The notes under the pieces: generated by a model
What the model saw: only the letters and a program-made list of their open reading frames with translations
Database searches by the model: none
Told to the model about the DNA's origin: nothing
Position numbers and translations under genes: made by a program
Origin: Lachnospiraceae bacterium
GTDB lineage: Bacteria; Bacillota; Clostridia; Lachnospirales; Lachnospiraceae
Direction: 5' to 3'
DNA: 13,779 bases
Assembly: GCA_900770535.1 (NCBI GenBank)
Contig: CAAHDV010000126.1
Span: 1-13,779 of the forward strand
Shown: positions 183-11,557 of the stretch, one piece after another
Numbering within the stretch: the first letter of the stretch is position 1
Layout of the letters: the number at the start of each line of letters is the position of its first letter

Positions 183-1139
183 ATGAAGAAAACATTAGCA
201 ATGGTATTAGCAATGGGTATGACAATTGCAAGTTTGACTGCATGCAGCAGCAAACCGGCAGAGACAACTGCAGCAGCTACCGAGGCAGCAAAGACTGAGG
301 CAGCAAGCGAGGCAGATACAAAAGCAGAAGAGACCACCGAAGCAGCTGGCGGCAAGGCAGAAGGCCCGATCACCGTTGTTTCCCGTGAGGATGGATCCGG
401 CACCAGAGGCGCTTTCATCGAGCTGTTCGGTATCGAGACCAAGAACGATGCTGGCGAGAAAGTAGATAACACCACCGAGGATGCAGAAATCACCAACAGC
501 ACCTCGGTTATGATGACCACCATCGCAGGCAACAAGGGCGCAATCGGATATGTTTCCCTGGGTTCCTTAAATGACACCGTAAAAGCAGTTGACATTGACG
601 GCGCTGAGGCAACCGTAGATGCCATCAAAGCTGGCGAGTACAAGGTAGCACGTCCGTTCAACATCGCAGTCAAAGAGGGCTTAAGTGATGTTGCTTCTGA
701 TTTCATCAAGTTCATCATGAGCGAGGATGGCCAGAAGGTAATCGAGGACAACGGTTATATCAGCCAGGGCAACGAGGGCGCTTACACCGCTTCCGGCTTA
801 AAGGGTAAGGTGGTTGTAGCTGGTTCTTCTTCCGTAACTCCGGTTATGGAAAAGCTGAAAGAGGCTTATGCAGCAGTAAACCCGGATGTAGAGATTGAAG
901 TTCAGCAGTCTGATTCCACCACTGGTATGACTTCCGCAATCGAGGGTGTATGCGATATCGGTATGGCATCCAGAGACTTAAAGGACAGCGAGCTGGAAGC
1001 TGGTCTGACCCCGACCGTCATCGCAATGGATGGTATCGCAGTCGTAGTTAACAACGAGAGCCCGGTTACCGAGCTGACCAGCGAGAACGTAAAAGACATC
1101 TTTACCGGTGAGATTACCGACTGGGCAGACGTTCAGTAA
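183..1139 (+). CDS. pstS: Phosphate-binding lipoprotein PstS with reversed (circularly permuted) domain order
   Basis: Substrate-binding protein of the Pst high-affinity phosphate ABC transporter, 318 aa, tethered outside the membrane. A signal peptide ends in lipobox LTAC with Cys21, followed by an Ala/Glu/Thr-rich linker to about residue 60. Residues 62-75 carry PITVVSREDGSGTR; R68, S72, G73 and T74 match the spacing of phosphate ligands R135, S139, G140, T141 of E. coli PstS. Residues 120-193 match what is normally the family's C-terminal end (GAIGY, FIMSEDGQKVIEDNGYI). Only then, at 209-217, comes KVVVAGSSS, normally the start of the mature protein, followed by IGMASRD (259-265) and the FTGEITDW segment (307-314), normally mid-protein, next to the stop. 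All elements are present, but the two halves are swapped. RBS AGAGGAG lies before ATG 183. The pst genes follow directly, supporting the role in phosphate uptake. Family is certain; permutation is read from motif order. Confidence 0.93.
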   Translation: MKKTLAMVLAMGMTIASLTACSSKPAETTAAATEAAKTEAASEADTKAEETTEAAGGKAEGPITVVSREDGSGTRGAFIELFGIETKNDAGEKVDNTTEDAEITNSTSVMMTTIAGNKGAIGYVSLGSLNDTVKAVDIDGAEATVDAIKAGEYKVARPFNIAVKEGLSDVASDFIKFIMSEDGQKVIEDNGYISQGNEGAYTASGLKGKVVVAGSSSVTPVMEKLKEAYAAVNPDVEIEVQQSDSTTGMTSAIEGVCDIGMASRDLKDSELEAGLTPTVIAMDGIAVVVNNESPVTELTSENVKDIFTGEITDWADVQ

Positions 1140-1154
1140 CAGTAGAAATGTGCG

Positions 1155-1196
1155 GCAGGGCAGCTAGGAAGACAAAACAAGCTGCCCTGCTTTTTT
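1155..1196 (+). terminator. Hairpin with U-run between pstS and pstC (partial terminator)
   Basis: A perfect 11-bp stem pairs 1155-1165 (GCAGGGCAGCT) with 1180-1190 (AGCTGCCCTGC) across a 14-nt loop, followed by six T at 1191-1196. This has the form of an intrinsic terminator. Because pstCAB-phoU follow on the same strand with no clear promoter of their own, it probably acts as a leaky terminator or 3' stabiliser that raises pstS output above that of the membrane and ATPase subunits. That functional reading is inference; the hairpin is seen. Confidence 0.85.
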
Positions 1197-1209
1197 ATAA
1201 GGAAAGAAA

Positions 1210-2070
1210 GTGAGAACCATGAAAAATCTGAAAGAACAGCTGATGCACGCAGTATTTTTACTCGGTGCCTGCGTGTCCATTCTGTGTGTTGCCATGATCT
1301 GTGTATTCCTGTTCGCAAATGGTATTCCGGCGATCGGAAAGATCGGAGTCCTGAACTTCTTAACCGGCGAAAAGTGGAAACCGGGCAATAACCTCTTTGG
1401 CATCCTGCCGATGATCTTAGGCAGCATTTACGTGACAGCCGGTGCCGTCATCATCGGAGTGCCGATCGGCATTCTGACTGCAGTTTTTATGTCGAAGTTT
1501 TGTCCGAAGCGAGTTTACAAGATTGTAAAGCCGGCAATCGATCTGCTGGCCGGAATCCCTTCGGTTGTATATGGATTCTTCGGTATGGTTGTGATCGTAC
1601 CGGTTGTCTCCACCCTGTTTGGCGGAAGCGGCAAGAGCATGCTGACCGCATCGATCCTACTTGGGATCATGATCCTGCCGACCATCATCGGCGTGTCGGA
1701 ATCCGCGATCAATGCCGTACCGTCCAGCTATTACGAAGGTTCCCTGGCACTAGGCGCCAGCCATGAGCGCAGCGTATTTTTCGCTACACTTCCGGCAGCA
1801 AAATCCGGTATTCTGGCCGGTGTGATCTTAGGCGTTGGCCGTGCCATCGGTGAGACCATGGCGGTCATCATGGTAGCCGGAAACCAGGCACGTATGCCAA
1901 AGGGCATTTTACAGGGTGTCCGCACCATGACGGCAAACATCGTTCTGGAAATGGGATACGCAACGGATCTCCACCGGGAAGCGCTGATCGCCACGGCGGT
2001 AGTCCTTTTCGTATTCATTCTGATCATTAACCTGTCGTTTTCAGTTATCAGCAGAAAGGCGAATGCATAA
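1210..2070 (+). CDS. pstC: Phosphate ABC transporter permease PstC
   Basis: Integral membrane subunit of the Pst transporter, pairing with PstA to form the phosphate channel. It is 286 aa if translation starts at GTG 1210, which has an AAGGA about 6 nt upstream; ATG 1219 (three codons later) is possible but further from the RBS. Hydrophobic segments begin at about residues 14-35 and 68-93, with more to the C-terminus at about 284. The cytoplasmic EAA-type loop that contacts the ATPase is visible as YEGSLALGASHERSVFFATL followed by the VGRAIGETMAV segment typical of PstC. Length and order are normal for the family. It follows pstS after a hairpin, and its stop codon overlaps the pstA start by one base (TAATG), so the two are very likely translationally coupled. 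Confidence 0.95.
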   Translation: MRTMKNLKEQLMHAVFLLGACVSILCVAMICVFLFANGIPAIGKIGVLNFLTGEKWKPGNNLFGILPMILGSIYVTAGAVIIGVPIGILTAVFMSKFCPKRVYKIVKPAIDLLAGIPSVVYGFFGMVVIVPVVSTLFGGSGKSMLTASILLGIMILPTIIGVSESAINAVPSSYYEGSLALGASHERSVFFATLPAAKSGILAGVILGVGRAIGETMAVIMVAGNQARMPKGILQGVRTMTANIVLEMGYATDLHREALIATAVVLFVFILIINLSFSVISRKANA

Positions 2071-2975
2071 TGGAAGCAGCTATGGAAAAGAAAAATATCG
2101 AAATGCAGGCGATCAACCGCCAGACTTTCGGGCAGCGGTTAAAGTCCTACAAACGCAGTCCTCTGTCTCTGGTGCTTCTGATCCTGGTATCGGCATCGGC
2201 ACTTCTGACGGTGATGACGTTACTGTTTTTACTGGCTTATATTCTGATCAAGGGAATCCCGTATCTGACTCCGAGTCTGTTTGCGTGGGAATACAACAGT
2301 GAAAATGTATCCCTCATGCCGGCACTTGTCAATACGGTGATCATGACAGGGCTCTCCCTGCTGATCGCAGTTCCCCTTGGCATTTTCGCGGCCATCTATC
2401 TGGTGGAATACGCCAAACGCGGCAACCGGCTGGTGAGCATCGTGCGGATCACCGCCGAGACCCTGACCGGCATTCCGTCCATAGTTTATGGCCTGTTTGG
2501 ATTTCTTTTGTTCGTGGTGGCCCTGGGCTGGTCTTACACCATCTTAGGCGGCGCCATGACGCTGGCGATCATGATCCTTCCAACGATCATGAGAACCACG
2601 GAGGAGGCCCTGAAAGCAGTCCCGGATTCTTACCGGGAAGGAAGCTTCGGTCTGGGGGCCGGACGTCTCCGCACCGTTTTCCAGGTAGTTCTGCCATCTG
2701 CAGTACCTGGAATTCTGGCAGGTATCATTCTGGCGGTTGGCCGTATTGTAGGCGAGACCGCGGCACTGATGTATACAGCGGGAACGGTTGCAGGCATTCC
2801 ATCCAACTTATTCGGCTCTGGCCGAACCCTGGCAGTGCACATGTACGTGCTGACCAATGAAGGACTTTACACCAACCAGTCTTACGCTACGGCAGTCGTA
2901 CTTCTGGTCATTGTGGTTTGTATCAACGCAGTATCCGGATTCATCGCAAAGAAAGTATCCGGAAAGGCTGCTTAA
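2070..2975 (+). CDS. pstA: Phosphate ABC transporter permease PstA
   Basis: Second membrane subunit of the Pst transporter, 301 aa. The N-terminal ~28 residues are polar, followed by a long hydrophobic segment at about residues 31-57 and several more through the C-terminus. The EAA loop reads EGSFGLGAGRLRTVFQVVLP, followed by GRIVGETAALMYTAGTVAG, which is characteristic of PstA rather than PstC. ATG 2070 overlaps the pstC stop and has AGAAAGG at 2053-2059 as a probable RBS; an in-frame ATG at 2082 is an alternative start. pstB begins 12 nt after its stop. Nothing is missing relative to the family. Confidence 0.95.
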   Translation: MEAAMEKKNIEMQAINRQTFGQRLKSYKRSPLSLVLLILVSASALLTVMTLLFLLAYILIKGIPYLTPSLFAWEYNSENVSLMPALVNTVIMTGLSLLIAVPLGIFAAIYLVEYAKRGNRLVSIVRITAETLTGIPSIVYGLFGFLLFVVALGWSYTILGGAMTLAIMILPTIMRTTEEALKAVPDSYREGSFGLGAGRLRTVFQVVLPSAVPGILAGIILAVGRIVGETAALMYTAGTVAGIPSNLFGSGRTLAVHMYVLTNEGLYTNQSYATAVVLLVIVVCINAVSGFIAKKVSGKAA

Positions 2976-2987
2976 AAGGAGAACATT

Positions 2988-3737
2988 ATGGATAAGCTTA
3001 CAATCAGCAATATGGAACTCTATTATGGAGATTTCAAAGCATTAAAAGGCATTAACTTAAATATTCAGGCCAACGAGATCACAGCTTTCATCGGCCCGTC
3101 CGGCTGCGGCAAATCTACCTTATTAAAATCCTTAAACCGCATGAATGACCTGGTTGAGGGATGCCGCATCACCGGAAGCATTCTGTTAGATGGCGAGGAC
3201 ATCTACGGGGATATGGATATCAACCTTCTGCGCAAGCGAGTGGGTATGGTATTCCAGAAGCCGAACCCGTTCCCGATGAGCGTGTACGACAACATTGCCT
3301 ATGGCCCGCGTACCCACGGTATCCGCTCCAAAGCGCAGCTCGATGATATTGTAGAGAAATCCCTGCGGGACGCAGCCATCTGGGATGAGTTAAAGGACCG
3401 CTTAAAAAAGAGTGCCCTGGGACTTTCCGGTGGACAGCAGCAGCGTCTGTGCATTGCAAGAGCCCTGGCTGTACAGCCGGAGGTGCTTCTGATGGATGAG
3501 CCGACCTCCGCGCTGGACCCGATCTCCACTTCCAAGATCGAAGACCTTGCGGTGGAACTGAAAAAAGATTATACTATCGTCATGGTAACCCACAATATGC
3601 AGCAGGCAGCGCGTATCTCCGACAAGACCGCCTTCTTCCTGTTGGGCGAAGTGATCGAGTTCGGTGAGACCGAGCAGATCTTCTCCATGCCGAAGAACAA
3701 GAAGACAGAAGATTACATTACGGGGAGGTTTGGTTGA
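2988..3737 (+). CDS. pstB: Phosphate ABC transporter ATP-binding protein PstB
   Basis: Cytoplasmic ATPase that drives phosphate import through PstCA; 249 aa, normal for the family. Walker [10 protein letters not shown] at 36-44, Q-loop region [14 protein letters not shown] signature LSGGQQQR at about 146-153, Walker B VLLMDEP at about 166-172 with catalytic E171, and the H-loop His at about 202 (VTHNMQQA). The [14 protein letters not shown] segment is diagnostic of PstB among ABC ATPases. ATG 2988 is preceded by AAAGGAG at 2975-2981, 6 nt away. It ends one base before the phoU start codon, so coupled translation is likely. All catalytic elements are intact. Confidence 0.97.
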
Positions 3738-3738
3738 T

Positions 3739-4386
3739 ATGCGTAACCGGTTTGATGAACAGCTGGAGCTGTTGAATGTGGAACTGATCCGCATGGGTGC
3801 CCTCTGTGAGGATGCCATTTCCTATGCGTCCCGCACCCTGATGGGCGAGGGCGATTTTGCCAACGAGGTTTATAAGGCCGACCACGAGATCGACCAGAAA
3901 GAGCGGGAAATTGAGAGTCTGTGCATGCGCCTTCTGCTGCAGCAGCAGCCGGTAGCAAAGGATCTGCGCCAGGTTTCTTCCGCGTTAAAGATGATCTCCG
4001 ATATGGAACGTATCGGTGACCAGGCGTCTGACATCGCGGAGATCTGCGGCTTTGTAGATGACCGTGACGCAAAGAGCCGCCTTCACATTCGCGACATGGC
4101 AGATGCTACCATGCGCATGGTGACACAGAGTATTGATTCTTATGTGAAACGGGATTTGAACATTGCAAAAGAGGTGGTTCAGTACGATGATGTGGTGGAT
4201 GACCTTTTTGACAAGGTAAAGCAGGAGCTGATCGGCATGCTGAGTGCCGGGAACAACGACGAAAAACTGGGCGAGTTCTGCATCGATATGCTGATGATCG
4301 CCAAATATTTTGAGCGGATCGGAGACCACGCGACAAACATTGCGGAGTGGGTGGAATATTCCATCACGGGAACCCATCTGGAATAG
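3739..4386 (+). CDS. phoU: Phosphate signalling protein PhoU
   Basis: Peripheral membrane regulator that connects Pst transporter state to the PhoR kinase and represses the Pho response when phosphate is ample. I place the start at ATG 3739 (MRNRFDEQLELL), 215 aa, preceded by GGGGAGG at 3722-3728; the frame stays open upstream into pstB, but that extension is not PhoU-like. The protein is all-helical in character, with the two repeats typical of the family. The matching signatures are ERIGDQASDIAE in the first half and ERIGDHATNIAEWVEY near the C-terminus, and acidic E/D clusters (for example EVYKADHEID) fit the family's metal-binding motifs. It lies 1 nt after pstB and 12 nt before the response regulator gene, so the position is classical. 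Confidence 0.95.
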   Translation: MRNRFDEQLELLNVELIRMGALCEDAISYASRTLMGEGDFANEVYKADHEIDQKEREIESLCMRLLLQQQPVAKDLRQVSSALKMISDMERIGDQASDIAEICGFVDDRDAKSRLHIRDMADATMRMVTQSIDSYVKRDLNIAKEVVQYDDVVDDLFDKVKQELIGMLSAGNNDEKLGEFCIDMLMIAKYFERIGDHATNIAEWVEYSITGTHLE

Positions 4387-4398
4387 AAGGAGAACACA

Positions 4399-5076
4399 AT
4401 GATCTATCTGGTTGAAGACGATGAAAGTATCCGGGAACTGGTAATCTACACGCTGCAGACCACGGGTCTTACCGCAAAGGGCTTCCCCTGCGCGAAGGAT
4501 TTCTGGAATGCCATGAAGCAGGAATATCCGTCCCTGGTGCTCCTTGATATCATGCTGCCCGACGAGGACGGCCTGACTATTTTGAAAAAGCTGCGGGACA
4601 ATGGTCCCACTAAGCGGCTTCCGGTCATCATGCTGACGGCCAAGGGCACGGAGTATGACAAGGTGGTAGGCCTGGACAGCGGTGCGGATGATTACATACC
4701 AAAGCCGTTTGGCATGATGGAGCTGGTGTCCAGAGTGCGCGCGCTGCTTCGCCGTACGGAGCCGGAGCAGCGAAACGATACCTGCAGCGCCGGTCCGATC
4801 CATGTGGACCTGAACCGCCATGTGGTGACAGTGGACGGCAAAAATGTAGCGCTGACCTTCAAGGAATTTGAACTGCTCTGTTACCTGATGGAAAACAAAG
4901 GCATGGTCTTAACCAGAGATCAGCTGTTATCGAAAATATGGGGATATGATTTTGACGGTGAGACCCGCACGGTGGATGTCCATATCCGGACATTACGGCA
5001 GAAGCTGGGAGAGGCCAGCCGCTGTATCGAGACCATCCGCGGAGTCGGCTACAAGCTGGAGGAATCGGAAACATGA
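4399..5076 (+). CDS. phoB: Phosphate-responsive response regulator, OmpR/PhoB family
   Basis: DNA-binding response regulator of the Pho two-component system (PhoB in proteobacteria, PhoP in Bacillus); 225 aa. The receiver domain spans about 1-118: acidic pocket E6-D7-D8, phospho-acceptor D50 in LLDIMLPDEDG, T80 in IMLTAK and K102 in PKPF. The C-terminal winged-helix domain spans about 130-222, with the recognition helix region ETRTVDVHIRTLRQKLGE and the closing IETIRGVGYKL. The start has AAGGAG at 4387-4392, 6 nt before the ATG. The stop overlaps the phoR start by ATGA. Placement after phoU and before a PAS-containing kinase makes phosphate control of this operon very likely; the direct target boxes are not proven. 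Confidence 0.93.
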   Translation: MIYLVEDDESIRELVIYTLQTTGLTAKGFPCAKDFWNAMKQEYPSLVLLDIMLPDEDGLTILKKLRDNGPTKRLPVIMLTAKGTEYDKVVGLDSGADDYIPKPFGMMELVSRVRALLRRTEPEQRNDTCSAGPIHVDLNRHVVTVDGKNVALTFKEFELLCYLMENKGMVLTRDQLLSKIWGYDFDGETRTVDVHIRTLRQKLGEASRCIETIRGVGYKLEESET

Positions 5077-6800
5077 AGATCAAACGAAAAATCTACTGGA
5101 ATCTGTGTCTGGTAGCACTTCTTGCCATGGCGCTATCAGCGCTCATCACAGCCCTGCTTTTATGCCAGGACTTACAGACCCAGATGCGCCAGTCTGTTAT
5201 GACTGAGGTTCGTTACTTGGAGTCCGCCATGGATGTGTCCGGGGAAGAGTACCTTGCACATTTAAAGAGCCGGGGTGACGGCAACAGTGTCAACCGCATC
5301 ACCTGGGTCAGCCCGGATGGAGAAGTCCTTTATGACAGCTTCGCAGACAGCGAGAGCCTGGAAAATCATAAAGACCGGCCGGAGATTGCGGCAGCGCTGA
5401 AAAACGGACGCGGAGAGAGTGTCCGCACCTCTCACACGCTGGCTGAGCAGACCTACTATTACGCAGCCCGCCTGGACGATGGCAGCGTCATCCGCGTAGC
5501 CAGCACCACAAAGAGCGCGCTGGCCACGGTAGTACATACCATTCCGGTTATGATTGCCATGGGTATTCTGATCGTACTTGGCGTCCTGATCCTGGCCGAG
5601 TTTCAGACGAAGCGGATCGTGGCACCGATCAATGAGATGGACCCGGATGATCCGAAGGCCGGTGAGGTTTACGATGAATTGGCCCCACTGGTGCGCCGCC
5701 TGGAAAAGCAGAAAGAAACCATCCGGCAGCAGATGGAAATACTGCGGGAAAAGCAGGAAGAGTTTACTGCTATTACCGAGAACATGCGGGAAGGCTTCAT
5801 TGTGGTGGACAGCAAGGGCGATGTGATGTCCTATAATAAGAGTGCGTTGAAGCTGCTGGGAATTCCGGCGGAGCAGGCAGATGGACATGACTATTCGGTC
5901 GGAGCTGCCGGAAACGCAGGCGCAGGACAGCGGGCGAACGTCAATATCATCAGCCTGAACCGCTCCGAGAATTTCCGCCAGGTGGTAGATGGCGCACTGA
6001 AAGGTACCCACTGTGAGCAGATGCTGGATGTGGGAAACCGCCATTACCAGATCATGGCAAATCCGGTGGCAGAGAGCAATGGCCGCAGCGGTGCTGTCGT
6101 AGTCATTCTCGATGTAACCGAGCAGCAGAGCCGCGAGGAACTGCGCCGGGAATTCACCGCCAATGTCTCCCATGAGCTGAAAACACCGCTCACTTCCATT
6201 TCCGGTTATGCGGAAATCATGATGAATGGACTGGTTCAGCCATCCGACATGGGACGATTCTCCGGCAAGATTTATCAGGAGGCACAGCGCCTTATCACCC
6301 TGGTGGGCGATATCATCCGCCTGTCTCAGCTGGATGAAGAAAAAGTCCAGCTGGAAAAGCGGCCGGTGGATCTGCACATGATTGCCTCCGATGTGGTAAA
6401 ACGCCTGCAGGATGTGGCCAAGAAAAACCAGATCACCCTGATGATGACCGGCAAACCAACTGTAGTAAACGGCAATCCGCAGATTCTCGACGAGATGATC
6501 TACAACCTCTGCGACAACGCCATCAAGTACAACAAGCCCTTCGGAGAAGTGGAAGTCAACGTGGCCACCATCAAAGACCATCCGGTACTGACCGTAGAAG
6601 ATGATGGCATCGGCATCCCGGTGGACGACCAGGAGCGCATCTTCGAACGCTTCTATCGGGTGGATAAGAGCCACTCCCGCCAGATCGGCGGAACCGGACT
6701 GGGACTTTCCATTGTAAAGCATGGAGCCATTTACCATAAGGCAAAGGTGGAATTAAAGAGCGCACTGGGGGAGGGAACCACGGTGCGGATTGTGTTCTAA
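5073..6800 (+). CDS. phoR: Phosphate sensor histidine kinase PhoR
   Basis: Membrane sensor kinase partner of the upstream regulator; 575 aa. TM1 is at about 8-31 and TM2 at about 155-176, flanking an extracytoplasmic domain of about 120 residues. After TM2 comes a short HAMP-like linker (KRIVAPINEMD) and a coiled stretch, then a PAS-like domain at about 230-350 (NMREGFIVVDSKGDVMSYN). The HisKA domain has VSHELKTPLTS with phospho-acceptor H367. The ATPase domain has an N-box around N478-N482, G1 DDGIGIP (D511, G512, G514), an F-box FERFYRVDKS and G2 GGTGLGLSIV from G539. All catalytic boxes are intact, so it should be an active kinase. Its start overlaps the regulator stop by 4 nt (ATGA). In this group PhoR is thought to read phosphate through Pst-PhoU rather than by binding phosphate itself. 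Confidence 0.93.
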   Translation: MKIKRKIYWNLCLVALLAMALSALITALLLCQDLQTQMRQSVMTEVRYLESAMDVSGEEYLAHLKSRGDGNSVNRITWVSPDGEVLYDSFADSESLENHKDRPEIAAALKNGRGESVRTSHTLAEQTYYYAARLDDGSVIRVASTTKSALATVVHTIPVMIAMGILIVLGVLILAEFQTKRIVAPINEMDPDDPKAGEVYDELAPLVRRLEKQKETIRQQMEILREKQEEFTAITENMREGFIVVDSKGDVMSYNKSALKLLGIPAEQADGHDYSVGAAGNAGAGQRANVNIISLNRSENFRQVVDGALKGTHCEQMLDVGNRHYQIMANPVAESNGRSGAVVVILDVTEQQSREELRREFTANVSHELKTPLTSISGYAEIMMNGLVQPSDMGRFSGKIYQEAQRLITLVGDIIRLSQLDEEKVQLEKRPVDLHMIASDVVKRLQDVAKKNQITLMMTGKPTVVNGNPQILDEMIYNLCDNAIKYNKPFGEVEVNVATIKDHPVLTVEDDGIGIPVDDQERIFERFYRVDKSHSRQIGGTGLGLSIVKHGAIYHKAKVELKSALGEGTTVRIVF

Positions 6801-7025: not shown

Positions 7026-8381
7026 ATGCTGAAACGGAAAATGGAAGATAAAATCCGGCACTTTTTTGAGACACAGAATAAGGCGCTTTTGATTACCGGG
7101 GCGAGGCAGACGGGGAAAACGTTTGTGATCCGGCAGTATGCGAAAACAGCAGGGAAAAATCTGGTGGAACTCAATTTTCTGGAAAATGAAAATGCCGGAA
7201 AACTGTTTGAGGGAGCCGCGAACAGCAGGGATATTCTGCTTCGCATTTCAGCATTAACGGACGTACCTCTGGAAAAAGGAAAGACCATCATTTTCTTTGA
7301 TGAGGTTCAGGAATGCCCGGAAATTGTAACGGCGGTGAAGTTTCTTGTCGAGGAGGGAAGTTACCAGTACCTTCTAAGTGGTTCGTTTCTGGGGGTGGAG
7401 TTAAAAGATATTCGTTCCATTCCGGTTGGCTACATGGATGTGTTTGAAATGTATCCGTTGGATTTTGAGGAATTTTGCAGAGCAAACGGAGTTTCTGAAC
7501 ACATTTTGACAGTATTACGCCAGTGCTATGAAGAGAAGACCCCGGTAGATGGGCTTGTTCATGAGAAAATGATGGAACTGTTCCGGCTGTATCTGATTGT
7601 TGGAGGTATGCCGGAAGCGGTGAATACATTTCTGAAAACCAACAATCTGAAACTGGTGGAGGAGATCCAGAAGGGAATTGTCCGGCTTTACAAAAAAGAT
7701 ATCGCCAAATACGACCCGGAACATAAATTATATCTGGAAGAAATATTTACCCTGATTCCGAGCGAACTGAATCAGAAGAATAAACGTTTTATTCTGAAAA
7801 ATCTGAATGAGAATTTCAAGTTTTCAAGATACGAGAACAGTTTCATCTGGCTGAAGGAGGCCGGAGTGGCGCTTCCAGTGTATTGTGCCTCAGAACCGGC
7901 GCTGCCGCTGCTTCTTTCAAGAGCCACGAATCTGTTTAAATTGTTCGCATCCGATGTTGGTCTGCTTGCATCTATGTATATGGATGGATTGCAGCTTCGA
8001 ATTCTGAACCGGGAAGTGGACATTAATTTTGGTTCCGTCTATGAAAATGTCATAGCCCAGGAACTGCGTACCCATGGATTTGATCTCTACTATTATAATA
8101 GTAAGAAAATGGGAGAATTGGATTTTCTGGTAGAATATAAAGAGAAAGTTCTGCCGTTAGAAGTCAAATCAGGAAAAGGTTACACAAGACATGCGGCCTT
8201 GAGCAATGTGCTTGCGGCAGAGAACTATGATATTCCGCAGGGACTTGTACTGTGCAATGAAAATGTGAGCACAATAGATAAAATTACCTATTATCCAATC
8301 TATATGATCATGTTTTTGGAAAAGGAAGCGGCGAAAGAGGATATGATTTATACGCCGGATTTCTCAATTTTGCGGCAGTAA
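7026..8381 (+). CDS. AAA+ ATPase with C-terminal DUF4143 (PD-(D/E)xK-like) domain
   Basis: Solitary ATPase of the AAA_14/DUF4143 family, 451 aa; biological role unknown. Such proteins are common in anaerobes, vary from strain to strain, and are suspected to act on DNA or as accessory defence or toxin-like elements, without firm proof. Walker A GARQTGKT spans 25-32; Walker B IIFFDEVQE has D92 and E93; SGSFLGVEL near residue 120 fits the AAA sensor region. Near the C-terminus GELDFLVEYK and LPLEVKSGKG place D366, E379 and K381 in the spacing of a PD-(D/E)xK nuclease core. I chose ATG 7026 (MLKRK) because family members usually begin so and GAGGG lies 7 nt upstream; GTG 7023 is also open. Codon use is more A/T-rich and less biased than in the pst genes, suggesting acquisition. 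It has its own promoter, repeat array and flanking hairpins. Confidence 0.88.
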   Translation: MLKRKMEDKIRHFFETQNKALLITGARQTGKTFVIRQYAKTAGKNLVELNFLENENAGKLFEGAANSRDILLRISALTDVPLEKGKTIIFFDEVQECPEIVTAVKFLVEEGSYQYLLSGSFLGVELKDIRSIPVGYMDVFEMYPLDFEEFCRANGVSEHILTVLRQCYEEKTPVDGLVHEKMMELFRLYLIVGGMPEAVNTFLKTNNLKLVEEIQKGIVRLYKKDIAKYDPEHKLYLEEIFTLIPSELNQKNKRFILKNLNENFKFSRYENSFIWLKEAGVALPVYCASEPALPLLLSRATNLFKLFASDVGLLASMYMDGLQLRILNREVDINFGSVYENVIAQELRTHGFDLYYYNSKKMGELDFLVEYKEKVLPLEVKSGKGYTRHAALSNVLAAENYDIPQGLVLCNENVSTIDKITYYPIYMIMFLEKEAAKEDMIYTPDFSILRQ

Positions 8382-8459: not shown

Positions 8460-10358
8460 CTACATCGTCACCAGATGATACGCAATCTGGTCCGCGGTCA
8501 TCATCTGAGCTTCTCTTTGGTGACAGGTAAAGATGATGATCTGCACCGGATATGCTTTTTTCAGCCATTTCAGCGCGGTGTGCAGCCGGTCTTCATCGTA
8601 GAGTACAAAGCTGTCATCAAAGATCAGCGGCATGTAATCGCCTTCCGGCTGGATGAGCTTGGCGGCAGCGAGGCGCAATGCCAGGTAGATCTGGTCCATG
8701 GTGCCGCTGGATACCTGCTCGACCGGAACCAGGCGGGTGCGGGTGTTCATGAACACATTCAGGTTTTCATCGACGCTCATGCTGTCGTAGATGCCGCCGG
8801 TGATACCGGAAATCAAATCTGAAGCGGTCTTGTTCAGGTATAGTCCGAAGGAATCCCGGATGGTGCCGGAAAGCCCGGTCATGGTTTCCAGGGCCAGGTC
8901 GATGGCAGTAATCTCCTCGCGGATGTGGTCATTCTCCGCCAGAACCTGTTTTAAGGATTCCGTCTGGTCCTTGCAGTGTGCCAGATGATCCAGTTTTTTC
9001 TCCAGCTCCCACTGGGCCTTCTGCTGGCGGGAGATGGCATCATCACAGTTTGTTTCCTTCTCCTGGAGGGCGGTGATCTCGGAGGCCTGTTCTTTCACGG
9101 ACTGCTCGGAGCGTTCCAGTACCTGGCTTAACCGGACAAATTCCTCCATGCGGCTTTCAAAGGCAGTCATGGCCTCTTCTGAAATGGAGGAATCTCCCAG
9201 ATGGCGGGAGAAAATCTCCTGCAGCAGCTTTTCTGTCATGGAAAATTCCTGTTTTAAGCTGCGGTTCTTCATAAAGAAAATGAGCCCTACCGCAAAGAAG
9301 AAGACAGCCGCGGCACTTAACCCGCAGATGAGCCCCACCGTGTAGCGGGCCACGCCGGTGGATACGGAAATCAGGGCACCCGTTCCGGACACAACCGGAT
9401 CCAGAGTCTGGGAACTGAAAAATCCCAGCACTCCGGCTCCCAGCGCGCAGAAAACGGCCAGCACCAGCATAACAACCGGAAGTATGGCCCGGCCTTTGTG
9501 GGAGGTTGCGTCCGCTAATTCCTTATAATGGGCATAGGTGTTCCGGGCGTTCTCCTGATATGCGTGGATGGATGCCTCATCGGTAAACTGCGCCCCGTCC
9601 AGTGCCTGACGCCCTTTGGCGATCTTCTGAAGCAGAGTCTCGCGTTCCGTCTGTTTCTCGGAAAGCTGGTTCTTCACCTGGGAGCGCAGATTTTGATAGG
9701 TCTGGAGCTGGTTCTCGTATTCCGGAGCGGAAATCTCTTTTTCAATGTTTTTGATCTCGGTCAGCAGTGCAGTGTAGGTGCGGGCGGCCTCCGGGGTGAG
9801 CTGGCGCTCAAACTCCTTGCGCCGGTTCTTTAAATAAGAAGTAGCTTTCGTGATATTCAGAGAAAGGTTGCCGGTGGTGTTCATGTTGGCAATGTAGTTT
9901 CGAAGTTCCGTCACCATGCCGCCTTCCGTCACGCATTTGAGCTGCCCGATGCTGATGGTATTGTTATAAGCCGTCTCCGTGAGGCCCCCCAGAAGAAAAT
10001 CCAGGAAACCCTTGGTGGGCTCCACTTCTTTGCCTGCGGTTTCATTGACGATCACAAAAGACTTCTGGTCCTTCTGGAAGTTTCGTTCCAGACGGTAGAT
10101 GACACCGTCCTTCTCCACCCGCATCCGGCCGCCGTAAACGGCCTTGTTCTGCCAGGGCTCATATTTGCTGTAAAGGTCCCCGCGGGCAGCACGCCCACGT
10201 CCCCGCTCCAGACCAAAAAGCATGCAGCGGATGAAGGTGTGCAGGGTGGATTTTCCGGCTTCGTTCTTGCCGTAAACCACGTTTAAATCTTGATCGAAAG
10301 AGACGGAGAGGTCATGGAATTTGCCGAATCCGTCGATATGTAAATCCAGTATCCGCAT
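8460..10358 (-). CDS. YhaN-like SMC/Rad50-type ATPase with two central hydrophobic segments
   Basis: ATPase partner of the metallophosphoesterase encoded just upstream, recalling the YhaO-YhaN and SbcD-SbcC pairs of DNA end processing and repair; 632 aa. The N-terminus (MRILDLHIDGFGKF) leads to Walker A GKNEAGKST at 30-38. Heptad-like charged coiled-coil stretches flank the middle. Two hydrophobic segments, about 291-314 and 340-364, form a possible membrane hairpin. The C-terminal half has an ABC-type signature VSSGTMDQIYLALRL (SSGT at 550-553) and Walker B PLIFDDSF with D581-D582. It is clearly shorter than Bacillus YhaN (over 900 aa as I recall it), the arms being reduced. ATG 10358 lies 3 nt after the upstream stop, with its RBS (AGGAG) overlapping that gene's end, so the pair is one operon. 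The exact DNA substrate cannot be read from sequence. Confidence 0.88.
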   Translation of the reverse strand: MRILDLHIDGFGKFHDLSVSFDQDLNVVYGKNEAGKSTLHTFIRCMLFGLERGRGRAARGDLYSKYEPWQNKAVYGGRMRVEKDGVIYRLERNFQKDQKSFVIVNETAGKEVEPTKGFLDFLLGGLTETAYNNTISIGQLKCVTEGGMVTELRNYIANMNTTGNLSLNITKATSYLKNRRKEFERQLTPEAARTYTALLTEIKNIEKEISAPEYENQLQTYQNLRSQVKNQLSEKQTERETLLQKIAKGRQALDGAQFTDEASIHAYQENARNTYAHYKELADATSHKGRAILPVVMLVLAVFCALGAGVLGFFSSQTLDPVVSGTGALISVSTGVARYTVGLICGLSAAAVFFFAVGLIFFMKNRSLKQEFSMTEKLLQEIFSRHLGDSSISEEAMTAFESRMEEFVRLSQVLERSEQSVKEQASEITALQEKETNCDDAISRQQKAQWELEKKLDHLAHCKDQTESLKQVLAENDHIREEITAIDLALETMTGLSGTIRDSFGLYLNKTASDLISGITGGIYDSMSVDENLNVFMNTRTRLVPVEQVSSGTMDQIYLALRLAAAKLIQPEGDYMPLIFDDSFVLYDEDRLHTALKWLKKAYPVQIIIFTCHQREAQMMTADQIAYHLVTM

Positions 10359-10361
10359 GGT

Positions 10362-11432
10362 TTAACTCCTCTCGTCTGTTGTGCGCAGCAGAGCATCGAT
10401 CCCGTAATACAGCGCCTTTTTCTCAACCGGGCTTGGATCGTTCTTCTGAAACGCCTGAATATAAAAACCAATCATATCACTGGGATGTTCCGCAAACAGC
10501 TGGCAGAAATCGTACTGTGGCTCCGATTCATCCACCGCTTCCACAATCTGCAGGCGGCGCTCTAACGGTTCTAAGTCAAAGGTAATGTCCGGGTCGCGCA
10601 TGCCGCGGATGCGGAACCGGTAGATATGTTCCATGCCGCGCTCTTTTACAGCATCGGTGATACGGTCGCACAGCTCACCGTTGGTGGTGGCCGGTGTGAC
10701 ATGGACCACCAGCGGAATGTACTGGGTGCGCGCTACCGGAACAAACTCCAGGGAGATGACCTGGCCGGATGCCGGCTGGATCTCACCCACCACCATGCCG
10801 TGGGCGCCGGTTTCTGTTTTGTCCAACGGCTCTAAGGAACCGGGATAAGCGTAGGAAAAATCCGGCGCCAGTTCCGGCTTGTGAATGTGGCCCAGCGCCA
10901 CATAGGAAAAACCGGTGCGGGCCAGACCTCCTTTATCTAACGGAAGGTGGGAGGCATCGCCGCCGTGGGCCAGCAGTACATGAATGCGGCCGTCATCCGG
11001 CGCCTTGATGCCGTTTAACCGTGCCTCGTTAATCTCTGCGGTATGGTAGGAGAAACCGTGCACCTCCAGGTTTAAGTCCTTAAAATAAATGGAACTTAAG
11101 TCCTCGGACATGAGGACGGTGACATTGGGACACCAGGTGAAGCTCATGAGCGCGGAGTTGGAGCGGATGCGGTCATGGTTTCCGGCAATGATGACCACCC
11201 GCACGCCCGGAATGGTGGAGAACAGGTAGTTGACCTCTTTTAAATCCCGCAGGAGCGGCTGGCGGTGAAACAGGTCTCCGGCAATGAAGAGGCAGTCCGC
11301 GTCCCGCAGTTTAGCCTGACGCACGACCTCCGCAAAACTGTCGCGGATGGCCTGGGCGCGTTCGCGGCTCCAGGGCCGGTCACTGTCCGGGTTCATGCCC
11401 CAGTGGACATCGGCAATGTGAATGAATTTCAT
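10362..11432 (-). CDS. YhaO/SbcD-like DNA repair exonuclease (metallophosphoesterase)
   Basis: Calcineurin-like phosphoesterase of the DNA repair exonuclease type, 356 aa, expected to be a Mn-dependent nuclease working with the downstream ATPase. All metal-binding motifs are visible in order: D8-V-H10 (IADVHWG), G52-D53 (FIAGDLFHR), G84-N85-H86-D87, then LLAHGG and GHIH further on. A C-terminal region of about 120 residues after the catalytic domain (from the PGSLEPLD segment) is the usual capping and partner-binding part. I start at ATG 11432 (MKFIHIADVHWG), which has AAGGAG 6 nt upstream; the frame is open for 40 further codons, but that stretch runs through hairpin DNA and is not family-like. 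asnS lies 137 bp upstream on the same strand; co-transcription is possible. Confidence 0.92.
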   Translation of the reverse strand: MKFIHIADVHWGMNPDSDRPWSRERAQAIRDSFAEVVRQAKLRDADCLFIAGDLFHRQPLLRDLKEVNYLFSTIPGVRVVIIAGNHDRIRSNSALMSFTWCPNVTVLMSEDLSSIYFKDLNLEVHGFSYHTAEINEARLNGIKAPDDGRIHVLLAHGGDASHLPLDKGGLARTGFSYVALGHIHKPELAPDFSYAYPGSLEPLDKTETGAHGMVVGEIQPASGQVISLEFVPVARTQYIPLVVHVTPATTNGELCDRITDAVKERGMEHIYRFRIRGMRDPDITFDLEPLERRLQIVEAVDESEPQYDFCQLFAEHPSDMIGFYIQAFQKNDPSPVEKKALYYGIDALLRTTDERS

Positions 11433-11471
11433 GGAAATCTCCTTATAAATGAAAACTGAGATGAAGCAACA

Positions 11472-11557
11472 ATGCGGGTATGCCGGCAGTTCATCCTGCA
11501 CAGTATACCCGCATAGGTTTTTGCGAATCCAGAACGTGTCAGCGACACGCATGGATT
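11472..11557. repeat. Two strong inverted repeats in the asnS to exonuclease gap
   Basis: Inverted repeat A pairs ATGCGGGTAT (11472-11481) perfectly with ATACCCGCAT (11505-11514); inside its 23-nt loop GCAG (11486-11489) can pair with CTGC (11496-11499). Inverted repeat B pairs AATCCA (11526-11531) with TGGATT (11552-11557) and, nested inside, CGTGTC (11535-11540) with GACACG (11544-11549) over a 3-nt loop. Read on the - strand, B lies just after asnS and A follows, but neither has a T-run on that strand; a T-run (11518-11522) follows A only on the + strand. It may be a small dispersed repeat, an RNA stability element or a weak terminator. Confidence 0.7.

Follow-up and report, generated by a model that had tools for sequence, protein, structure and literature searches.

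Does the first gene of a pst operon in a Lachnospiraceae bacterium encode a phosphate-binding protein whose two halves have changed places? The question is raised by a stretch of 13,779 nucleotides (contig CAAHDV010000126.1 of assembly GCA_900770535.1), which is referred to in its whole length as the window. A preliminary description made from the letters alone had proposed that this PstS is a natural circular permutant, and the open reading frame (ORF) and the segments that it quoted are indeed present (Table 1). Very probably, and as the best explanation of the evidence as a whole, the product of this gene is the phosphate-binding lipoprotein of the adjoining pst operon in circularly permuted form, probably with a single origin in a Bacillota ancestor.

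The two halves of PstS are exchanged

The part of the protein running from GSSSV to FTGEITDW is called half A, and the part running from SREDGSGTR to GYI is called half B. The permuted PstS is laid out as signal peptide, tether, half B, linker, half A and stop codon. The phosphate-loop residues R68, S72, G73 and T74 are carried by half B, and S215, S217, S245 and S263 by half A. The lipobox cysteine, C21, is nearly invariant (at least 90%) across an alignment of 31 sequences.

Table 1. Features of the window, followed by fused PstS proteins from other records (positions of L148 and L149 are those of their own loci; aa, amino acids)
Feature	Position	Strand	Evidence and remarks
pstS, permuted order B-A, 318 aa	183..1139	+	start ATG, stop TAA
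Lipoprotein signal peptide of permuted PstS	183..245	+	sequence; lipobox LTAC ending at Cys21
Ala/Glu/Thr-rich tether	246..365	+	sequence; residues 22-61, here preceding half B
Half B	366..761	+	residues 62-193 (ITVVSREDGSGTR ... GYI); C-terminal half of ordinary PstS, here first
New linker	762..809	+	residues 194-209, bridging old C-terminus to old N-terminus
Half A	810..1133	+	residues 210-317 (VVAGSSSVTP ... FTGEITDW); N-terminal half of ordinary PstS, here last
pstC permease	1219..2070	+	TIGR02138, 295.5 bits, cut-off 196.45
pstA permease	2070..2975	+	TIGR00974, 271.1 bits, cut-off 193.45
pstB ATPase	2988..3737	+	TIGR00972, 424.6 bits, cut-off 343.2
phoU	3739..4386	+	TIGR02135, 197.7 bits, cut-off 130.25; two PhoU domains; start codon picked by eye
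PhoB/OmpR-type response regulator	4399..5076	+	best family TIGR02154 PhoB, 228.6 bits, under cut-off 296.2
PhoR/PnpS-type sensor histidine kinase with PAS domain	5073..6800	+	HisKA, HATPase_c, PAS; best family NF046044 PnpS, 300.6 bits, under cut-off 400
L148, tandem PstS-PstS fusion in pst operon	1102-2685	-	single ORF
L149, tandem PstS-PstS fusion in pst operon	1099-2682	-	single ORF
P0139, P0140, P0164, P0242, P0264			one-and-a-half PstS, B-A-B
P0187, P0333, P0335, P0336			one-and-a-half PstS, A-B-A

The NCBIfam PstS model TIGR02136 matched the permuted protein as two swapped stretches (E 1.7e-53 and 181.7 bits for the whole protein), the best of which aligned protein residues 204-317 with profile positions 35-155. 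The Pfam family PF12849 (PBP_like_2) also matched in two stretches and passed its cut-off (124.5 bits against 27). When half A alone (window 807-1136) was compared with solved structures, 26 distinct PDB sequences were matched, and the match started at chain residues 6-64 in 25 of these. The sole exception was 4h1x, in which it began at chain residue 157. Moreover, 4h1x matched the permuted PstS as a single colinear stretch (residues 58-316, E 6.3e-67), whereas 4q8r, 4gd5 and 1twy matched it as two stretches in exchanged order. Both segments are homologous to one parent with their order exchanged. By sequence, the exchange of halves is far beyond chance, and homology of both halves places the protein in the PstS family. 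The operon context agrees with this assignment, as PstC, PstA, PstB and PhoU were found above their family cut-offs directly downstream of the permuted pstS.

The 4H1X structure is PstS 2 of Streptococcus pneumoniae TIGR4 (SP_2084), which has the same half order as the permuted PstS described here. The preliminary description had regarded Streptococcus PstS as canonical, which is correct for PstS 1 (4exl) but not for S. pneumoniae PstS 2. The Clostridium perfringens (4Q8R/4GD5) and Vibrio cholerae (1TWY) proteins, which are of the TIGR02136 type, share homology in both halves, the phosphate-loop residues and the operon type with the permuted PstS; unlike it, they have the half order A-B, no joining linker and an intact TNW..PIVVV loop. 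Escherichia coli PstS (1IXH and others), the functional prototype, is much more distant; its order is A-B and it matches half A weakly (E about 0.1). Relatives with the permuted order, which had been named beforehand as a possible sign that the ancestral order was misjudged, do occur, but as a single nested group. The ancestral order A-B stands: it is the order of the 25 other PDB sequences of PstS type and of the canonical tree rows.

Joined ends, ligand loops and predicted fold

The linker and the C-terminal tail were measured in a redundant set of 369 permuted proteins; residue counts were made on 64 non-redundant permutants and 88 ordinary rows, excluding L092 and L095, two large ORFs in which a stretch weakly resembles PstS. 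The linker between the two half envelopes was 16 aa long in 339 of the 369 permuted proteins and 15-18 aa long in 364, and 0-3 residues followed half A in 365. The gap from half A to half B in ordinary PstS was 4-8 aa in all 155 rows. The old ends are therefore joined and the new ends lie within a former loop, the short one by which ..TNW leads to PI.VV.R in ordinary PstS. An opening in the loop between FTGEITDW and PITVVSRED, with a linker at the old ends, had been proposed in the preliminary description, and it is borne out by sequence, structure prediction and conservation.

Residues R68, S72, G73, T74, S215, S217, S245 and S263 were each invariant in the 64 non-redundant permutants, and position 216 was Ser in 59 and Thr in five. 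Position 265 was Glu in 43, Asp in 13, Ala in five and Ser in three permutants, and it was also variable in the ordinary rows. The claim that every phosphate-ligand motif is retained thus stands for R68, S72, G73, T74, S215 and S217, but D265 is not conserved (13 of 64). Residue 244 (window 912-914), adjoining the ligand-loop residue S245, was Asp in 61 of 64 permutants and Gly in all 88 ordinary rows; S. pneumoniae PstS 2 has Gly at this position. This clade-specific Asp might tune pH or anion preference.

Structure prediction for the permuted PstS gave a PstS-type fold with the topology of 4H1X; the preliminary description had anticipated that the protein should still fold. The best structural matches were PstS-like; OpuAC was also among the matches, with a low Z score (about 10). 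The tether was modelled as disordered, with a predicted local distance difference test (pLDDT) value of roughly 43-57 in the blocks that span residues 21-60. According to the prediction and to the crystal structure of the solved relative, the permuted chain still closes as the customary PstS fold of two lobes. Tether lengths, estimated with a rough lipobox pattern, did not differ clearly, the median being 17 aa in permutants and 22 aa in ordinary rows. The lipid tether would enter at the lobe with the SGT loop instead of the lobe with the GSS loop. By analogy with ordinary PstS, phosphate would be bound between the lobes and delivered to the adjoining PstC-PstA-PstB transporter.

An alternative is that the permutant binds a ligand other than inorganic phosphate, for example phosphonate or another oxyanion. 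The clade-specific D244 in the ligand loop speaks for such a change, but a full pstCAB-phoU operon and PhoB/PhoR-type regulators adjoin the permuted pstS and both the SGT and the GSS loops are conserved, and we regard a different ligand as quite improbable.

Distribution of permuted and ordinary PstS

Genome contigs were scanned with two patterns taken from half B of the permuted alignment, a scan that favours permutants because both patterns come from that source. Among 425 matching stretches there were 346 relatives, of which 80 were kept. All 80 retained loci had B-A order, and in each of them pstC followed on the same strand at a distance of no more than 1.5 kb. Of the loci for which NCBI gives a family, most belonged to Lachnospiraceae (33), followed by Clostridiaceae (7), Oscillospiraceae (6), Cellulosilyticaceae (4) and others. 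A scan of viral contigs gave 114 stretches matching a pattern, none of them a relative. Of 29 matching plasmid records, two held a single match over 80% or more of the query, one in Monoglobus pectinilyticus and one in Treponema saccharophilum plasmid pTS2. Both genes (L185 and L186) precede pstC, pstA, pstB and phoU, and NCBI names both products merely "substrate-binding domain-containing protein". Permuted PstS in pst operons keeps such a vague annotation name because colinear profiles miss the permuted order. The pTS2 operon (L185) lies on a spirochaete plasmid of 382 kb and its PstS is 59% identical; this suggests horizontal transfer.

In ten genomes reached through permuted loci, swapped TIGR02136 stretches were present in all ten. 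One of these, Thermoclostridium caenicola (G002), also holds an ordinary PstS; in G003 and G009 a weaker stretch lies in a large ORF of 782 or 871 aa, and a third match, a weak one, was seen in G005. Among 398 genomes of the phylum of T. caenicola, at least 14 had a full permuted match. Of 120 genomes of the family of Schaedlerella arabinosiphila (G001; Lachnospiraceae by NCBI), 84 had a PstS match: a full B-A match was found in 35 and a full A-B match in 43, with both forms in three and partial matches alone in nine. The search of Lachnospiraceae for the same order, recommended in the preliminary description, thus found it in 35 of 120 genomes. In the class of G379, 35 of 46 genomes had a match, nine of them with full B-A order. 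Few genomes hold both forms, and therefore permuted and ordinary PstS are mostly mutually exclusive within one genome. Two neighbouring permuted pstS genes were seen in G484 (contig 1, 311881-313751).

Number of origins and rival explanations

Trees were built with the halves brought into one order, the first with 74 rows including L092 and the later ones without this non-PstS row. In the 74-row PstS tree, 26 of 27 permuted rows formed one clade (99/96), including the permuted protein P0001, S. pneumoniae PstS 2 and the Treponema plasmid protein. The A-half tree placed 26 of 27 permuted rows together (98/90), and the B-half tree placed all 27 in a set of 30 (96/91). A tree of PstC served as an independent witness; its permuted rows were gathered through their PstS, and S. 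pneumoniae PstC was left out. All 33 permuted-operon rows formed one clade there (96/90), with L150 as its basal member. The permutant as one clade with a single origin is favoured by the PstS and PstC trees.

Several observations weigh against a permuted PstS of single origin with the topology given above. The TIGR02136 cut-off was missed (181.7 versus 206.6 bits) and the colinear profile order violated; a score under the cut-off is expected because a permuted sequence was aligned with a colinear profile. The assignment of the new ends to a lobe was taken from strand order, not from coordinates. The row L150 (38% identity) fell on a long branch outside the clade of 26 permuted rows, both in the free PstS trees and by its A half, three long-branch ordinary rows (L105, L120 and L081) sat within the permuted group in the B-half tree, and the tandem PstS fusions considered below were not sisters of the permutant and did not group with P0001.

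The placement of L150 could mean that the permuted order arose more than once, with at least the L150 lineage apart. L150, however, has the same break point and a similar linker to other permutants, its B half groups with 4H1X, and its PstC is the basal member just mentioned. Moreover, the tree holding all 27 permuted rows in one clade (without L092) had a log-likelihood higher by 11.57 and a p value of 0.665 in the approximately unbiased test. More than one origin is therefore considered unlikely. Relatives of L150 were sought in the family of G321 (two genomes), and the second genome has an ordinary PstS. Still less credence is given to a join of halves from two different genes in place of a rearrangement of one pstS. 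Resolution is poor in the half trees, and the three ordinary rows enter the permuted group of the B-half tree, but permuted rows cluster in both half trees and both halves are close to Clostridia-type PstS. The B half of the ordinary PstS L081, from T. caenicola, groups with permuted B halves on a long branch (98/84), a placement that reflects either an artefact or recombination. An assembly or annotation artefact is already refuted for the permuted family, with B-A order in all 80 retained loci, in the named Treponema and Monoglobus plasmids and in a crystal structure, and has next to no probability left. The permutant of PstS proposed in the preliminary description is upheld by the sequence, by the predicted structure compared with a solved relative of the same topology and by conservation over many loci.

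Tandem and partial PstS fusions

PstS fusions of the form A-B-A-B, each a single ORF of 527 aa, were found in at least two of 398 genomes (phylum of T. caenicola); in both, the fused gene stands between a sensor kinase gene and pstC. A homologue search with one tandem gave at least 120 proteins; among the 120 listed, 100 were A-B, ten A-B-A-B (including the query), three A-B-A-B-A-B, three B-A-B, one A-B-A and three B-A. The triple fusions are P0125-P0127, and one tandem (P0123) comes from a 3.8 Mb contig of Clostridium sp. 'deep ...'. In six tandem proteins checked, the copies within one protein were 73-92% identical, and the tandem label requires four changes on the PstS tree; tandems therefore arise repeatedly and recently. 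In L148, L149, P0123 and the others, the inner B1-A2 stretch has the permuted order, but these proteins, unlike the permutant, comprise two full ordinary domains. As direct ancestors they were rejected, being at most 47% identical to P0001 after unscrambling versus 52% for ordinary PstS. These findings show that the tandem fusions are younger, separate events and that in-frame duplication of pstS, the first step of a permutation, recurs readily. The route by tandem duplication suggested in the preliminary description is thus plausible in that such fusions exist, although those found are not direct ancestors. Two adjacent ordinary pstS genes in G171 (L119, contig 1, 817715-818584 and 818883-819752) are a neighbour pair that could fuse.

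A third search gave further B-A-B (two) and A-B-A (three) forms among the matches listed; none were found among the matches listed for the 398 and 120 genomes. These nine one-and-a-half proteins (Table 1) were not trusted as missing intermediates. All nine come from ENA, with longest contigs of 1.5-8.8 kb, the joins inspected by eye fall in conserved stretches, and P0281 shares the first part of P0139 (100% over 60%), there fused to a tRNA-synthetase domain. They may, for these reasons, be assembly chimeras; the other reading of these short metagenome contigs is a hybrid between an ordinary and a permuted pstS.

Other genes of the window

An ATPase with AAA_14 and DUF4143 adjoins the pst operon (window 7026-8381, + strand). 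A Rad50/SbcC-like AAA ATPase beside a Mre11/SbcD-like phosphoesterase occupies window 8460-11552 on the - strand, both under their named-family cut-offs.

Discussion

A single event in an ancestral member of the Bacillota is the most likely source of the permutation. An in-frame duplication of pstS would have been followed by loss of the outer halves with retention of the signal peptide and tether, and the permuted pstS would thereafter have travelled with its own permease gene.

The permuted PstS is real, ordinary within its own clade and already on record as a structure, but apparently undescribed as a permutant. The title of the 4H1X deposit makes no mention of permutation, "4H1X" was not found in the literature searched, and neither was a description of a permuted PstS, most subscription journals being outside the coverage. 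A comparable case is TpMglB-2 (Tp0684) of Treponema pallidum, a sugar-binding lipoprotein of Type I that is circularly permuted and whose relatives occur in treponemes and in gram-positive bacteria of the gut (PMC4990184). Its authors proposed that anchoring may explain the topology, and also considered that the halves came from two different genes (PMC4990184). Both proteins are natural circular permutants and tethered binding proteins of ATP-binding cassette transporters. TpMglB-2 differs from the permuted PstS in structural class, in its sugar ligand, in being an independent event, and in having the N lobe alone reordered so that a fourth hinge crossing is needed (PMC4990184). The permuted PstS falls outside Type Ic/Cluster Bc, to which TpMglB-2 belongs, since it is PstS-like by sequence and in its best structural matches, TpMglB-2 being compared by its description. 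Two independent permuted binding-protein families in bacteria with tethered lipoproteins are suggestive at most.

The permuted PstS is a natural circular permutation, cleanly datable by phylogeny, and belongs to a family of binding proteins that is among the best studied. Permuted and ordinary forms occur in the same bacterial family and fused tandem copies occur in other lineages, so that an old question becomes testable: are such permutations neutral, or do they alter the way in which a tethered binding protein works with its transporter? It is possible, though we hold this only tentatively, that the permutant is locked to its own permease lineage (its own PstC clade) and that the whole operon took over from the ordinary system in many Clostridia of the gut and also reached streptococci and treponemes. 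If so, the permutation would alter tethering or docking on PstCA and would not be a neutral accident.
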